NCBI RefSeq assembly: GCF_900177345.1
Contig: NZ_FWZT01000008.1
Span: 186,001-250,000, forward strand
Source: Pseudobacteriovorax antillogorgiicola
Lineage (GTDB): Bacteria > Bdellovibrionota_B > Oligoflexia > Oligoflexales > Oligoflexaceae
Direction: 5' to 3'
DNA length: 64,000 nt
Shown here: positions 4,237 through 14,393 of the stretch, in pieces
How positions within the stretch are numbered: the first letter of the stretch is position 1
Layout: each line of letters begins with the position of its first letter
Notes under the pieces: model-generated
The model's input: only the letters and a program-made list of their open reading frames with translations
What the model was told of the DNA's origin: nothing
Databases searched by the model: none
Program-made: the position numbers and the translations under genes

Positions 4237-5196
4237 TCATGAACCGGGGTCAATTTCGTAGATACAGTAGGTTCCAAGCTGCGTGTGGGCGCTCCCTCCA
4301 AAATCGAACGTTGAATCATTGCTGATTTGGTAAGCAACAAGGCCGCTTTGCTCGCGAGAAACGCGGTGCCAAAACCAACCCGAGTAACCTTCCAGTTGAG
4401 AAGCGCCCGCTGCAAAAAGTTGATGGCCTTCGCTACGAAGGGGGAGCCGCCAAGTTCCTGGCCAGTGGTTCACTGGAGGAAGGTTGTCGCAAATATCTGC
4501 TGCGCTTGATCCATTGCTGGTATAGGTAAGGGCATTCGTAAAAAGTTTTTGCTCAGTCTCATGATAGTAAATCTTGTCCCAAGGAATCGATCCCCCATGG
4601 ACTTCTGGCCCCAAACCTGAGTGGTCAAGGTTGAGGCTTTCATCAGTAATAACGAAATCTTCTCGATCTGTTGCGTGGTGCCCTTGATAGGGGAGTTCCG
4701 GCAATGAAGCGCCTTCATAGAAATCTTCTTGATTGGTTTCCGCTTGAATTTCCCCTGCAAGAACCATATGGATCGATTGGAAGTAATTATGATAGTAGTC
4801 TTCACTGAGAACGAGACCCACACTCCAATCAGAGAATGCCGTCATGGGGCGCAGGTACAAAATATCTTCGCTCTTAGGGCTCGGTCGGACAATCCATGAT
4901 AACTCGCCGAGGAGCTTTGAACCGTCCTGATTGAGTGTCGCTTTACATAATACTTTCACATGATTAGTCAGAAATTCGCTTTCGCAGTGGAGCCGGTAGG
5001 CGTTCTGTAAGTTCGAGGGCGTTACACCTGCGTCCAGGTTTTGTCTAAGTTGTTCCTGATTAGCCGCATTAATATCGGTTTCATGACCCTGTTGTATGGC
5101 GGCTTGCTTCGCGTCGTCGTCGGTGCCCTTACAGCCTCCAAACAGGCTTATTGTGACGAGACTTGCTAAAACTAGTTTTGGAGTGGCATCGTTCAA
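4237..5196 (-). CDS. Lipoprotein with DUF1566 (Lcl C-terminal)-like domain
   Basis: The N-terminus has a hydrophobic stretch ending in the lipobox LFGGC (Cys ~22), so it is probably lipid-anchored in the envelope. The C-terminal third carries W-R-L-P...E...L...GYSGWFWHR and a closing TYCIYEID, a pattern like the DUF1566/Lcl-C lectin-fold domain (WRLPT...WWSST type) found in many secreted bacterial proteins. The middle is unassigned. It is divergent from the HEAT-UDG gene across ~256 bp. Function unknown. Confidence 0.6.
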   Translation of the reverse strand: MNDATPKLVLASLVTISLFGGCKGTDDDAKQAAIQQGHETDINAANQEQLRQNLDAGVTPSNLQNAYRLHCESEFLTNHVKVLCKATLNQDGSKLLGELSWIVRPSPKSEDILYLRPMTAFSDWSVGLVLSEDYYHNYFQSIHMVLAGEIQAETNQEDFYEGASLPELPYQGHHATDREDFVITDESLNLDHSGLGPEVHGGSIPWDKIYYHETEQKLFTNALTYTSNGSSAADICDNLPPVNHWPGTWRLPLRSEGHQLFAAGASQLEGYSGWFWHRVSREQSGLVAYQISNDSTFDFGGSAHTQLGTYCIYEIDPGS

Positions 5197-5452
5197 AATC
5201 GATCTCCCAGCTTATCCACGCTTGCCATCGGGTTAAGGAGCTTTAAAAACCAGTCAACTGACTTACCCTTACCAAGGCTTCACATTTATAAGCTCTCGGT
5301 GCTTTTGACGAGAAGTTATGAGGGGGACACAAGTATATGATATTGTGTGATAAAAAGCATGGATAAAAGGCAGTAGCTCGCGCATACTTATAGCGAATTC
5401 TACCTAGAAATCTTGCATAAGGTAAGAATCTCACTACAAGAGGGAGGGAGTT

Positions 5453-6571
5453 ATGGTCAGGGGCCAATCGATTGTTAGAATCCTGTCGAATCCAGATCGA
5501 AGAACAGTCCAGGGGGTTGATCAGGCAGTAAGGTTGATCCGAGTCTCGCCTGATCGCATAGAGGAGCTAATTGACTGTGTTTTTCACCAAGAAAGTGTTG
5601 TGGCGATGCGTGCTGCTGACGCCTTGGAAAAAATCAATCGTAGTCACCCATATCTCCTAAAGCCTTATAAGAAAAGGATTCTGACGATACCGAAAAAACA
5701 AGCCTGCAAGGAGGCGCGGTGGCACTGGTGTCAGGTTGTGCCAGGCTTAGACCTCACCGATAAGCAAGCCCAAGCAGTATACGAAACTATGGCGATCTTC
5801 CTAGAAGACCCATCCAGTATTTTGCGTACTTTCGCTTTGCAGGGAATAGTTGATCTGGCTGTCACCTATCCCAAGTTCATTGTCAGCGCCAAACACCATA
5901 TTGAAGCTGCACTTAGCAAGGGAACAAAAGCAATGCAGGCTCGGGCTCGCAAACTGGCTAAAACTGTGGATCTAGCGGAACGCTATGCAAGCAATCCGAG
6001 CTTTCGGCTTCATCAAGACATTATTACTTGCAAGGCCTGCAAAGATCTGCCTTTAGGCCCCAAGCCTGTGGTTCGACTGACGGCGGCTGCCCGAATTAAA
6101 ATAGTAGGGCAAGCTCCAGGAATTCGCGTTCATGAAACAGGAATTCCTTGGAACGATCCTAGTGGTGAGCGGCTTAGGGATTGGTTGGGTGTTGGTCGTG
6201 CGGAATTTTACGATCCTAAAATCTTCGCCTTGGTTCCTATGGGGTTTTGTTATCCTGGAACGGGACCAAGCGGAGACCTACCTCCAAAACCAATCTGTGC
6301 TGAACTTTGGCAAAGTAAAATCGAAAGCAATTTGAAGAAAGTTGAACTAACTATGGCTATTGGCAACTATGCGCAAAACTATCTCTTGCCAGAGCCGAAA
6401 CGTTCGTTGACGGAAAGGGTTAAGCATTGGCAGGATTACTTTCCCAGTGTGGTGCCGCTACCGCATCCCTCCCCCCGTAATAATCGTTGGCTCAATAATC
6501 ACCCCTGGTTTGAAAGTGAATTGCTGCCAGAACTTCGAGATTTGCTGGCAAAAATTATTAGGGGCTCCTGA
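5453..6571 (+). CDS. HEAT-repeat domain fused to a family-4-like uracil-DNA glycosylase
   Basis: The start ATG is preceded by GAGGGAGGGAG. Residues ~1-175 match a stand-alone HEAT-repeat-like family (signature VVAMRAADALEKI, LLKPYKKRIL, then SSILRTFALQGIVDLA). Residues ~185-372 form a uracil-DNA glycosylase: motif 1 is VGQAPGIRVHETGIPWNDPSG and motif 2 is PLPHPSPRNN. Four cysteines sit as CKAC and C-x15-C (GFC...PPKPIC), the arrangement that binds 4Fe-4S in family-4 UDGs. It should remove uracil from DNA. The usual member of this UDG family is a ~190-residue single domain, so the fused helical-repeat domain is unusual; it could bind DNA as in AlkD-type HEAT proteins (inference). Confidence 0.8.
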   Translation: MVRGQSIVRILSNPDRRTVQGVDQAVRLIRVSPDRIEELIDCVFHQESVVAMRAADALEKINRSHPYLLKPYKKRILTIPKKQACKEARWHWCQVVPGLDLTDKQAQAVYETMAIFLEDPSSILRTFALQGIVDLAVTYPKFIVSAKHHIEAALSKGTKAMQARARKLAKTVDLAERYASNPSFRLHQDIITCKACKDLPLGPKPVVRLTAAARIKIVGQAPGIRVHETGIPWNDPSGERLRDWLGVGRAEFYDPKIFALVPMGFCYPGTGPSGDLPPKPICAELWQSKIESNLKKVELTMAIGNYAQNYLLPEPKRSLTERVKHWQDYFPSVVPLPHPSPRNNRWLNNHPWFESELLPELRDLLAKIIRGS

Positions 6572-7020: not shown

Positions 7021-7995
7021 CTAAGGAAAGGTCCATCCGACGGCTAGACCAATATCCTTCTGTGTCTGATCTGCAACGGAAGATCTTAGATCCCGATACT
7101 CGCCCCATAGATAAGTGCTGGGAACCCAAGCCATGTCTGGATCGATCAAAAAGCTAACATAAGCTGAACTTCCATGGCGAACGCGAAAAGACGAGGCGAA
7201 AGAGGACATGTAATAATGGAGACGAAAAGAGCTCGATAGAAACCAAGCAGGAATATGGTACCGGACGCCAGAGGCCAGGAAATTTTGACTAACAGGGTCA
7301 ATGATTAGACGAGTGGCATCTAGGGCCGACAGATAAGGGGTTTCCTTGGATCCCAAGGCTGTCACCAAGGACAGGGAGCCCCAGTAGTGCCAGTCTCTCT
7401 GGGCGATCCAGTTATGGACTCTAACCTTATTTGATTCGAACGGCCTGGTATCGTCAGTTTCGAAACGATGTTCTTGGATATCAATAATTAGCTTATCCGA
7501 AAACTGCCGCCCCCGACGATTCAGTTGAATCCGAACCCCGACATTAAGCCGAGACAGTAGGGTTGAGGTCGATCCATCGGCACTTTCCACCAAGTCAATT
7601 CGTGAGTAACCAACTGTTGGAGCCAGTAGCCACGACATGGGGCCAACCCGCCCTCCCTGGCAACCCGAGCACGCATCCGAGCTATTCATCGCCCCAGTTG
7701 CGGGGAGACTAGGACTACTTGAGATCGGGTTTCGATTCTTCGCATGGGGGACCCAGATCGAGTCTCCTGCTAGAATCAGATCAGGATCTTTAATGTTGCC
7801 GTTTTTAGCTGTAACGCTATCCTTAAATTTTTGAAAGCTTTTTGAATGCATCCCGTGCTGAACAAGGTCTTTGAAGATATCATAAAGGGTCATATCTTGG
7901 AATATATGATACCGATACCACTTCTCTCCGGCCACAGCCTCATCAGAAGGACTCAAGAAACCGACCAATGCCAATGTTAAAAGAAACTTTTTCAT
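7021..7995 (-). CDS. Exported protein, LysM-like N-terminus plus beta-rich envelope domain
   Basis: Signal peptide MKKFLLTLALVGFLSPSDEAVA, then ~60 residues ending DPDLILAGDSIWVP. That ending is the typical close of a LysM-like domain (tyrosine start, then P-x-x-I-x-x-G-x-x-I-x-x-P), which binds peptidoglycan. A short linker with CSGCQGG follows, then ~200 residues of alternating aromatic and polar residues ending in GWTFP, the pattern of an outer-membrane beta-barrel with a C-terminal aromatic. A link between wall and outer membrane is inferred. Start ATG 7995 has a modest AGGG site. No family is recognised for the barrel. Confidence 0.55.
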   Translation of the reverse strand: MKKFLLTLALVGFLSPSDEAVAGEKWYRYHIFQDMTLYDIFKDLVQHGMHSKSFQKFKDSVTAKNGNIKDPDLILAGDSIWVPHAKNRNPISSSPSLPATGAMNSSDACSGCQGGRVGPMSWLLAPTVGYSRIDLVESADGSTSTLLSRLNVGVRIQLNRRGRQFSDKLIIDIQEHRFETDDTRPFESNKVRVHNWIAQRDWHYWGSLSLVTALGSKETPYLSALDATRLIIDPVSQNFLASGVRYHIPAWFLSSSFRLHYYMSSFASSFRVRHGSSAYVSFLIDPDMAWVPSTYLWGEYRDLRSSVADQTQKDIGLAVGWTFP

Positions 7996-10141: not shown

Positions 10142-10406
10142 TTAGTGGAATTTATCTGCAACAAGATGAGCATTCTTGAAGGTATTTTTTGCGAATGATT
10201 TGAAGGTCGACGATAGGTCCAAAGTCACCACTTTAACATTCTCTGTTCCTTTGAACTTCAAAGCGGCATCTTCTAAGTCTCGTTTATTACGGCCATCAAT
10301 TAACTCATATAGACACTTGTTCTTGTGATCTACGATCACTGACGCATACTCAACAGGCTCATACTTAGGCTTACAAAAGCTGTTCATCAATGCCAATCAC
10401 CGGTGG
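10142..10406 (-). pseudogene. ISL3-family transposase remnant
   Basis: Minus-strand frame YASVIVDHKNKCLYELIDGR ... VVTLDLSSTFKSFAKNTF ... LVADKFH is the central DDE region of IS204/IS1001/ISL3-family transposases (VtmDmsspY, VaDkFH). The preceding PPVIGIDE catalytic strand is present but in another frame near 10385-10406, and the frame stops directly after DKFH. It is a short frameshifted relic without ends. Confidence 0.7.
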
Positions 10407-10424: not shown

Positions 10425-10841
10425 TCACTCTGTTTCACTGAAAACAGACTCGAATTCACCCAGTTCGTCCCAATTTCTCATTCCAGCTAGTAGCGTTTCC
10501 TTCCAAGTTCGATTGAGTATAGAGAAATCAAATTTTTTTAAGGAAATCCATTGGCCCTCAGGGCTTATGCCACCGGACATCAGCATAATGTGCAAATGCG
10601 GCTTGAAATCGCTTTTTCTTCCTACAGTATGAAGCACTATTAAACAGCCACATTCTAGGCTTACTCCTGCAACTTTTTCCATAAAGCTTTTTACGAAATG
10701 CCAGCCCATTGATATGAAAGCGCTGTATAAATCCCCTGTAGATCTATTCCAATAAAAGATCGACCGAAACTGAGCTGGGATTGTCAGTACAACGTGGCGA
10801 TAGTCCACATCCTCATAGAGTTTAGCGGCGATAGACTGAGC
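10425..10841 (-). pseudogene. IS91-family (Y2, rolling-circle) transposase remnant
   Basis: The frame contains DVDYRHVVLTIPAQFRSIFY, then LIVLHTVGRKSDFKPHLHIM and a GGIS turn, the middle of the Y2_Tnp transposase of IS91/IS801 elements (HvVfTiP, HTxGrk, PHlHvxxxgGg). The catalytic tyrosines and zinc-binding N-terminus are missing. Its 5' part overlaps the opening of the RHS reading frame on the other strand. Confidence 0.7.
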
Positions 10842-11759
10842 AAAGTTCTTCTATTTTTCCTGGCATCAATGCAGTCTTTTGCTTCAGCTTCCGAGGTTCA
10901 TACCCTATCTCCGGAGTTTTCTTCGGGGGTAGTTGATCATGAAACTGGCCTCGTTTATATGAATGCTCGTTACTATAACCCTACATCTGGAGCTTTCACG
11001 TCCCCTGACCCATTGTTTATAGCGGCTCCAGATATATGTGAAGAACGGTACAAGGAATGTAACCTCTACAGTTACGTTGCCAATGACCCAGTCAATAGTA
11101 TGGACCCAACGGGCCTAGCTCGTCAATCAGTTAGGAGGAGGTCTGTTAGGTCTTTAACGGCAGAGCAGACCAGAAGTTCTCTCTCACAAGCAGGTGTTAG
11201 GGGGACTTTAACCTCCCGAATGGCAGGTGGATTCAGATTATTTCGACAAACAGCAATGAGTACTTTGGCAAGACGATTTGGGGTAGGTTCCTACGCTCAT
11301 CAGAGAATTATCGGTAGCAGCATAATTAACCGAGGTCGAAGTGGGGCACCAATCCGTGTGGAGGTGGATCACACACCGACTGTTGGTGCCCAGCTCCCAG
11401 GTGGCTCAAGCATGAGAAGACGAATGCACCTCAGGGTAGCGAGTGCTCCGTCCATGGCGCTACCGAGGCAAGTCCATCGCCTTCACCCCACGACTTCTGG
11501 TGGATCAAATTACGATCGTGGGGTAATGGCGGGACAAGAACGCAGGCATATTCGAGCCGGAAACTACTATCAAGCCATGAGACTTCACTTTCAAGGCTAC
11601 CAGAACACTAGAGTAAATTGGCCAAGATATGGAACAAACGTCCATCAAGGAATGGCCCAAAATGCGGTAAATGCAGTAAGGCGAGCAAGGAGGCTAGGTC
11701 TTATTTCTAGCGCTGAAGAAAGAACGTTAATTGGATTGGCGAATCAAACGTCTCGATAA
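10794..11759 (+). CDS. Short RHS-core protein with putative nuclease-toxin C-terminus
   Basis: An RHS-repeat-associated core is clear: TGLVYMNARYYNPTSGAFTSPDP, then YSYVANDPVNSMDPTGL. After it comes a ~210-residue basic tail with VEVDHTPTVGAQL, ALPRQVHRLHPTTSG and AMRLHFQGYQN. The DH-x-P plus downstream V-H-R-x-H pattern resembles metal-dependent nuclease tails of polymorphic toxins (inference). Full RHS proteins have over 1000 residues, so this is a minimal or truncated form. A signal-peptide-like LSKVLLFFLASMQSFASA precedes the core, but no ribosome site supports any start (GTG 10794 and ATG 10869 are options). There is no immunity ORF in the 485 bp downstream. Confidence 0.6.
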   Translation: MAIVHILIEFSGDRLSKVLLFFLASMQSFASASEVHTLSPEFSSGVVDHETGLVYMNARYYNPTSGAFTSPDPLFIAAPDICEERYKECNLYSYVANDPVNSMDPTGLARQSVRRRSVRSLTAEQTRSSLSQAGVRGTLTSRMAGGFRLFRQTAMSTLARRFGVGSYAHQRIIGSSIINRGRSGAPIRVEVDHTPTVGAQLPGGSSMRRRMHLRVASAPSMALPRQVHRLHPTTSGGSNYDRGVMAGQERRHIRAGNYYQAMRLHFQGYQNTRVNWPRYGTNVHQGMAQNAVNAVRRARRLGLISSAEERTLIGLANQTSR

Positions 11760-13160: not shown

Positions 13161-14393
13161 TTGAGTTACCAAACCAAACGATTCGATTTTAAGAATAAAG
13201 ATGGGCATAGTTTATCAGGAAAGCTTGAATTGCCATCGAAGCCATTCAAGGCTCTTGCCATCTTTGCCCACTGCTTTACCTGCTCCAAAAATATACTGGC
13301 TGCAAGTCGGATCTCCCGAGGCTTAACGGATGCCGATATTGCCGTGCTCCGCTTTGACTTTACAGGCTTGGGAAGCAGTGAGGGAGATTTTGCGAATAGT
13401 GGCTTCTCTTCTAATGTAGATGATCTTATTGCAGCTTACCAAGCATTGGAAAATGAATATCAAGAGGCACCTAAAATTCTGATCGGACATAGTCTAGGAG
13501 GAGCCGCGGTGCTCGCTGCCGCACCCCAGCTACCGGCCTTAAAAGCCGTAGCCAGTATCGCAGCACCCAGTGAGGCTGAGCATGTTCTCAATAATTTCGC
13601 AGGAAAATTAGACGAAATCGAAAGCAAGGGATTTGCTGAAGTCTCGTTGGCTAATCGTACTTTTACCATTAAAAAAGAGTTTATTGATGACGTCAACGAT
13701 GACAGGTTTTTATCGAGACTGTCTGATTTCGAAGGTGCTGTTATGGTGATGCATGGGCCCGGTGATCAGACGGTAAGCATCGACCATGCGGCTAGAATAT
13801 TCAAATCTGCCAATCACCCGAGAAGCTTTATTTCGTTAGATCAAGCAGACCACCTCCTTTCTAATAAGAAAGATGCTGATTACGTCGCGACAGTTCTAGG
13901 GGCATGGGTCAGCCGCTTTCTAGAGGAGTCTGAAGAGGAGGCGAATGAGACTCATGATAGCGAATCAACATTGGTTGAACTCCGAGGAGTAGGAAATCAT
14001 GAATACACTCACCTGATTCGTGCACGGCAACATCAATTGCTGGCAGACGAACCAAAGAGTTTGGGAGGAGATGACCTAGGAATGGGGCCTTACGATTTGC
14101 TTTTATCATCATTAGGAGCCTGCACGGCGATGACCGTGAAAATGTATGCCCGTAGGAAGGAATGGCCTGTTGATGATGTTGAAATCAGTCTGGAGCATCA
14201 GAAGATTCATGGAAAAGACTGTGAAACTTGCGACAACAAAACGGGTAGGGTGGATCAAATCACCAAAACGATCAAGATTAAGGGTAATTTAAGCTCCGAG
14301 CAGACGGAGCGTTTGCGGGAGATTGCAGAGAAGTGCCCCGTAAATCGAACGTTGAAGTCTGAAGTGGCAATGAAAACAGTCCATATAGACTAA
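13161..14393 (+). CDS. Alpha/beta hydrolase-OsmC fusion protein
   Basis: TTG start seven bases after AAGGAGG. Residues 1-255 form an alpha/beta hydrolase: FAHCFTCSKN, FDFTGLGSSEG, nucleophile elbow IGHSLGGAA (Ser), VMHGPGDQTV (Asp region) and DQADHLL (His). Residues ~270-410 are an OsmC domain with the reactive Cys in LLLSSLGACTAMTVKMYA and the second in EKCPVNRTL. OsmC proteins reduce organic hydroperoxides with paired cysteines. The fused form is a known bacterial architecture. It is monocistronic, following a PRC-barrel gene. Confidence 0.88.
   Translation: MSYQTKRFDFKNKDGHSLSGKLELPSKPFKALAIFAHCFTCSKNILAASRISRGLTDADIAVLRFDFTGLGSSEGDFANSGFSSNVDDLIAAYQALENEYQEAPKILIGHSLGGAAVLAAAPQLPALKAVASIAAPSEAEHVLNNFAGKLDEIESKGFAEVSLANRTFTIKKEFIDDVNDDRFLSRLSDFEGAVMVMHGPGDQTVSIDHAARIFKSANHPRSFISLDQADHLLSNKKDADYVATVLGAWVSRFLEESEEEANETHDSESTLVELRGVGNHEYTHLIRARQHQLLADEPKSLGGDDLGMGPYDLLLSSLGACTAMTVKMYARRKEWPVDDVEISLEHQKIHGKDCETCDNKTGRVDQITKTIKIKGNLSSEQTERLREIAEKCPVNRTLKSEVAMKTVHID

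Follow-up and report, generated by a model that had tools for sequence, protein, structure and literature searches.

Within the 64,000-nucleotide stretch of the Pseudobacteriovorax antillogorgiicola genome analysed here (the window), a single uninterrupted ATG-to-TGA frame of 372 codons occupies positions 5453-6571 of the plus strand and encodes a protein of 372 residues before its stop codon, with a HEAT-like module in its N-terminal half and a module of the uracil-DNA glycosylase (UDG) superfamily in its C-terminal half. The whole-genome copy (G000:C8:191453-192568) holds an identical frame, the contig carrying it measures 279,767 bp with the gene far from both ends, and GC content is alike in the two halves (0.485 vs 0.479). 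A purine-rich, Shine-Dalgarno-like stretch, GAGGGAGGGAG, lies directly 5' of the start codon (5440-5450, plus strand), and the ribosome-binding site predicted from it at codon 1 is strong. An in-frame ATG at codon 161 (5933-5935, plus strand), with AAGGGA upstream of it, is a candidate internal start that could additionally yield a UDG-only product. Both flanking ORFs, 4237-5196 upstream and 7021-7995 downstream, are on the opposite strand, so the fused gene is probably transcribed alone. In the single assembly examined, no sign of a frameshift or of a contig joint is seen within the gene. The original prediction that two usually separate families are joined here in one 372-residue frame therefore stands, since there is one frame with no internal stop and a good start site, and since HEAT and UDG halves each occur elsewhere as genes of their own.

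The N-terminal module (residues 1-180; 5453-5992, plus strand) was delimited with an AlphaFold model and with a family alignment and profile. Its joint with the second module is very short, at about residues 181-183 (5993-6001, plus strand), as placed by the neighbouring model helices (159-180 and 182-191) and by the start of similarity to UDG relatives, usually at residues 184-190 of the fused protein. A Pfam search of the HEAT half returned no family at E ≤ 1. When the full protein was modelled in AlphaFold with 54 HEAT relatives, residues 1-180 were predicted as an all-helical solenoid of antiparallel helices (20-31, 33-43, 48-64, 66-77, 86-98, 103-116, 122-138, 140-156, and 159-180), with block pLDDT values of about 94-98 for residues ~21-180. 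The earlier assignment of this half as a HEAT-like helical solenoid, for which structure prediction had been proposed as the check, is thus confirmed at the level of a model. HEAT-derived alphaRep chains (E down to 2e-25) and also AP beta subunits are among the matches of the family profile, and the HEAT_2 Pfam model scores two of the relatives at 27.3 and 27.7 bits against a cut-off of 27.7. Structure matches obtained with VIA-align are generic solenoids, the best being CpcE (5n3u; Z 15.5, 160 residues, 2.9 Å).

Residues 1-178 align over the full length of the HEAT relatives at 28-38% identity (54 aligned), and the family alignment contains a set of nearly invariant positions, of which the window protein keeps 12 of 12. 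D15, R17, E59, E87, W90, and R164 are present in 54/54 relatives, R53, D56, H91, and S121 each in 53/54, R89 in 50/54, and K60 in 49/54; the window half has lost R98 (Gly there), G14, G20, and P159. The peptide patterns used to find these relatives span positions 52-59 and 84-91, and conservation was recounted in rows found through the other pattern only, where the residues hold (e.g., E59 in 24/24 and W90 in 26/26). Judged from the helix pattern, the conserved polar residues would line the inner, B-helix face of the solenoid. Net charge over residues 11-168 is +8, compared with a family mean of 3.3 (sd 5.7), and is as high or higher in 12/54 homologues, so that the window half is no more basic than is usual among its relatives.

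The UDG-superfamily domain covers residues 184-372 (6002-6568, plus strand, as are all features of this half). PF03167 matches residues 212-362 (E 6e-22, 78.7 bits vs a curated cut-off of 24.3), and the closest solved structure is PDB 3ikb (E 3.4e-51), which carries the title “uncharacterized conserved protein.” A profile built from four members scores 3ikb at 227.8 bits vs 28.6 bits for the Thermus UDGa (Tth UDGa, 1ui0). We aligned 13 members, comprising the window protein, three from its own class, eight places in seven HEAT-bearing genomes, and one plasmid; the window half is 47-55% identical to the 12 others, and 54-56% identical to the stand-alone UDG genes of its own class. Motif 1 reads GQAPG (residues 219-223; 6107-6121) and motif 2 HPSPRN (residues 338-343; 6464-6481), with H338 matching the catalytic His of UDGa. 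Between them lies HETGIPWNDPSG (residues 227-238; 6131-6166), in which H227 and D235 are invariant in 13/13. The four cysteines are a first pair, C193-x2-C196 (6029-6040), kept in all 13 sequences, followed by C266 (6248-6250) and C282 (6296-6298), and the residues invariant across the 13 members are these four cysteines, QAPG in motif 1, the WND Asp, and HPS in motif 2. The original prediction of a UDG with motif 1, motif 2, and four cysteines is borne out by these positions. All four cysteines align to cysteines of 1ui0, which we take to be the cluster ligands there, and they probably bind a 4Fe-4S cluster. The AlphaFold model is poor for this half, with block pLDDT values of 25-64 from residue 191 on, its alignment rows being HEAT relatives only.

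By these features, the UDG half belongs to a separate subfamily defined by QAPG and HPS(P/W)RN that is apparently uncharacterised. The aligned 3ikb-like members share the same domain over its whole length and the same motifs but have no HEAT module, whereas the window protein has one. The window protein also has the third and fourth cysteines, while 3ikb has Tyr and Phe at these positions, and both Fe-S and cluster-less proteins seem to exist within the QAPG subfamily. Plasmid records label the 3ikb-like subfamily “uracil-DNA glycosylase family protein.” In the literature searched, including the accessible portions of PMC10776899, PMC10359453, and PMC5387724, we found no activity assay of the QAPG subfamily, and none of this literature links GQAPG to a glycosylase.

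Comparison with characterised families places this half outside family 4, to which it had been likened. According to the accessible text of PMC10359453, family 4 carries GE(A/G)PG and HPAAVL, families 4 and 5 carry a 4Fe-4S cluster, and family 3 carries GMNPG and HPSPRN; the accessible text of PMC5387724 describes N80 of Tth UDGa as contacting uracil and H155 and N89 as acting in catalysis. The window protein and family 4 UDGa share the UDG fold superfamily, four aligned cysteines, and the motif 2 His, but motif 1 has Gln (GQAPG) in place of Glu, motif 2 is HPSPRN rather than HPAAVL, and no Asn corresponding to the uracil-reading N80 of motif 3 is found in residues 244-266, the residue four before C266 being P262. 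The NCBIfam family 4 model TIGR00758 gives 14.2 bits with the whole protein and 16.2 with the half, vs a cut-off of 125.3. The four-cysteine set behind the description “family-4-like” is therefore retained, and family 4 membership is rejected on motifs 1, 2, and 3 and on a score far under the cut-off. With Gln instead of the motif 1 Glu and no uracil-binding Asn, the protein may act on a substrate other than uracil. UdgX is likewise an Fe-S member of the UDG superfamily, but the match to TIGR03914 is weak (18.7 bits vs a cut-off of 189.95), and neither of its hallmarks, the KRRIH loop and GEQPG, occurs in the window sequence.

A likeness of the HEAT half to AlkD is not supported. The AlkD and AlkC HEAT-like glycosylases (PF08713) have in common with the window protein a helical repeat architecture and the idea of a role in DNA repair, but the window protein has no match to Pfam DNA_alkylation (PF08713) at E ≤ 1, and profile comparison of the HEAT half with the genome's own AlkD gave a probability of 0.1% vs 99% for the positive control. 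We reject AlkD kinship on the Pfam result and on the profile comparison with its positive control; the 50 matches listed in either structure search include no AlkD entry, which says little either way about a shared solenoid geometry.

The fusion itself is rare. In its own phylum, the full-length query matches 5/56 genomes and the UDG profile 5/56, and the HEAT half matches 1/58 genomes and the HEAT profile 3/56; no frame other than that of the window contains both modules. The four other UDG genes of the phylum are unfused, three lying in frames of 192-206 aa and one being a 74-aa fragment. This fragment, in a relative from the same family (G005:C27:4785-4976), may be a decayed copy or an assembly break. 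Among 398 sampled Pseudomonadota genomes, the full-length query matches 137, in 136 cases to the UDG half (G163, a fragment only), and the fusion occurs in none, with no match covering both halves; UDG matches start no earlier than query residue 134, and the one that starts there contains three stops. The HEAT profile matches 3/398 of these Pseudomonadota genomes, one being the genome used as centre. Of these three, G059 has the UDG as well, on another contig, and so does G388, about 1.8 Mb away.

In the genome_contigs collection (84,980 species), a scan for the HEAT family with two peptide patterns confirmed 85 of 184 candidates, of which 80 loci were kept (L020-L099); its query, A3, combined the window half with a typed consensus. 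The family consensus reads GGDRRSIG..MRAADALEK..VRWHLAQ..SSIVKTFAMQ..GTPAMRARGRKLL, and members are ~170 aa and mostly stand-alone. The loci fall in Pseudomonadota, Acidobacteriota, Nitrospirota, Chloroflexota, Bacillota, Bacteroidota, and others, with one Bathyarchaeota record. No UDG fusion exists in the 80 loci, and none of their 6,823 ORFs of at least 60 aa resembles the UDG half at E ≤ 0.01. Of the 28 HEAT-bearing genomes, which correspond to 28 of the 80 loci, seven have a UDG, encoded by open frames of 193-280 aa that nowhere extend over a HEAT match. The count of fused or adjacent genomes that had been proposed, with the halves searched separately, thus returns the fusion in the window only and no UDG near the 80 HEAT loci. 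Searches of viral contigs (with the full protein, the Persicobacter HEAT protein, and queries A1 and A4), of plasmids (with the HEAT half, the G014 HEAT-like protein discussed below, and the typed consensus), and of phages (with the HEAT paralogue and the UDG half) yielded nothing useful, and HEAT repeat plus uracil-DNA glycosylase was not found as one architecture in the literature searched. From the sequences at hand, the HEAT-UDG fusion is a real but rare arrangement of ordinary parts, with a repair role that is predicted.

The surroundings of the stand-alone members give little to connect them with lesion repair. The 117 ORFs that flank HEAT genes in 62 loci, taken from simple longest-ORF calls, match 156 Pfam families, the commonest with three matches each (acetyltransferases, methyltransferases, P-II), and no base-excision-repair family is among the 25 listed of these 156. 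UDG is present in 7/28 HEAT-bearing genomes vs 136/398 sampled Pseudomonadota, with phyla differing between the two samples, and co-occurrence of UDG with the HEAT family is not raised over the Pseudomonadota background. Other C-terminal domains, ACT or Cdd1, occur in 21/80 loci. The ACT_7 fusion is seen in 19 Azospirillum loci (e.g., L073:6001-6936, with L023, L028, L029, L032, L036, L042, L045, L047, L048, L053, L057, L062, L071, L074, L076, L082, L085, and L088), and its product is a possible amino-acid-sensing regulator. Cdd1 (PF11731) is fused in two loci, L044:391-1182 and L056:5998-6834 (Gallionella, Nitrosomonadales). We take Cdd1 to be a helix-hairpin-helix, DNA-linked family, some members of which are presumably those named mitomycin resistance proteins; it would be a thread to follow as the only DNA-suggestive partner of the HEAT family besides the window's UDG. 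Because no UDG lies nearby, neighbours are scattered, the fusions are to ACT and Cdd1, and co-occurrence is not raised, the extension by which the stand-alone HEAT family would work in lesion repair is unsupported, and this family looks like a general-purpose binding solenoid.

A HEAT tree of 59 rows (the 54 relatives, the window half, L007, L008, L011, and L012) groups the window half with Gammaproteobacteria and Magnetovibrio-type members with modest support (82/87), on a long branch (1.85). The HEAT paralogue in its own genome (L007) clusters apart, in a divergent group shared with the family relative G001 and the Persicobacter plasmid protein (100/100), and this placement in another divergent subgroup rejects it as direct donor of the window half. 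Orthology of the window half with L012, a stand-alone HEAT-like gene of G014, is unsupported, as that gene sits on an extremely long branch. The divergent, stand-alone Persicobacter plasmid gene (L008:3986-4507) is followed directly by a flavin-reductase-like gene and by what looks, by eye, like a photolyase-related gene. Stand-alone UDG relatives are present in the same class as the window genome, and the simplest account of the fusion is a lineage-limited event in which a HEAT gene, resident or acquired, became joined to a UDG gene. The same genome encodes a family 1 Ung (GQDPYH in L019) and an AlkD-type gene, so the fused protein would be an additional, not the sole, glycosylase. Elsewhere in the window, an ORF at 10794-11759 begins, by eye, like an RHS-repeat core (YMNARYYNP...DPTG) and continues with an unrelated C-terminal part, its neighbours at 10142-10396 and 10425-10808 have the look of transposase remnants, and a second two-module protein at 13161-14393 appears by eye to combine an alpha/beta-hydrolase with an OsmC-like part in a single frame.

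The single frame, both folds and families, and the conserved motifs and residues are computed, and we consider the chances about even that together they describe a base-excision glycosylase of the UDG superfamily equipped with a HEAT accessory binding arm. If so, the C-terminal module would flip out and excise a damaged base, uracil or another deaminated base, through H338 of motif 2, and the solenoid would serve as a binding arm rather than a second catalytic domain, its conserved polar residues tethering the enzyme to DNA or a partner protein and thereby aiming the glycosylase. The fusion would then be limited to this lineage and derive from a HEAT gene and a UDG that is a separate gene in relatives. 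The iron-sulfur cluster, the glycosylase activity, its substrate, the binding target of the arm, and the inner-face positions of its conserved residues are inferred. Whether the arm grips DNA rather than protein is about an even matter: a charge of +8 over residues 11-168 is compatible with DNA, but the conserved residues mix acids and bases, which makes protein or ligand binding as likely as DNA binding.

This same mixture, on what the helix pattern suggests is the inner face, fits a rival that we regard as quite possible, in which the HEAT half binds proteins or small ligands, has no link to DNA, and delivers the glycosylase to a partner or regulates it, as perhaps in the ACT fusions. The 19 Azospirillum loci agree with it, as do the neighbours of stand-alone members, which among the families listed are unrelated to repair. 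The best structural matches, protein-binding HEAT/ARM solenoids and CpcE, point the same way, though a shared solenoid says little on function. The two Cdd1 fusions, if that family is DNA-linked, and the net basic charge of the window half argue against it. A bolder version of the accessory-arm reading, that the UDG and Cdd1 fusions expose the whole HEAT family as a module binding DNA or repair complexes, a role masked by scattered neighbourhoods, and that in this bacterium it acts as a clamp that makes a non-family 4 Fe-S UDG processive or confers a new preference among lesions, seems to us unlikely. Slightly less probable still is an accidental and functionally neutral fusion, with the UDG working alone, perhaps from the codon 161 start. 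Its occurrence in one genome, the long tree branch, and an internal ATG with a weak Shine-Dalgarno-like sequence would fit such an accident, but the start site at codon 1 is strong and all 12 near-invariant HEAT residues are kept amid strong divergence elsewhere, a pattern that speaks for selection on that module. An assembly or sequencing error joining two separate genes would account for a fused form that is seen in a single assembly and in no relative but is highly improbable, as the modules share one frame across a joint of three residues without a frameshift, the gene lies mid-way in a 280-kb contig, and GC is similar in both halves.

The accessory-arm reading concerns a fusion known from a single genome, which makes it a modest lead, with no sign yet of the HEAT family at large in DNA repair. 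The analysis also highlights a large UDG subfamily, present in 136/398 sampled Pseudomonadota genomes, for which we found no published activity in the literature searched. If the HEAT arm does aim the glycosylase, the fused protein would be a natural case of a UDG that carries an accessory clamp and would give a first testable function to a widespread HEAT family that Pfam and NCBIfam cover poorly here.
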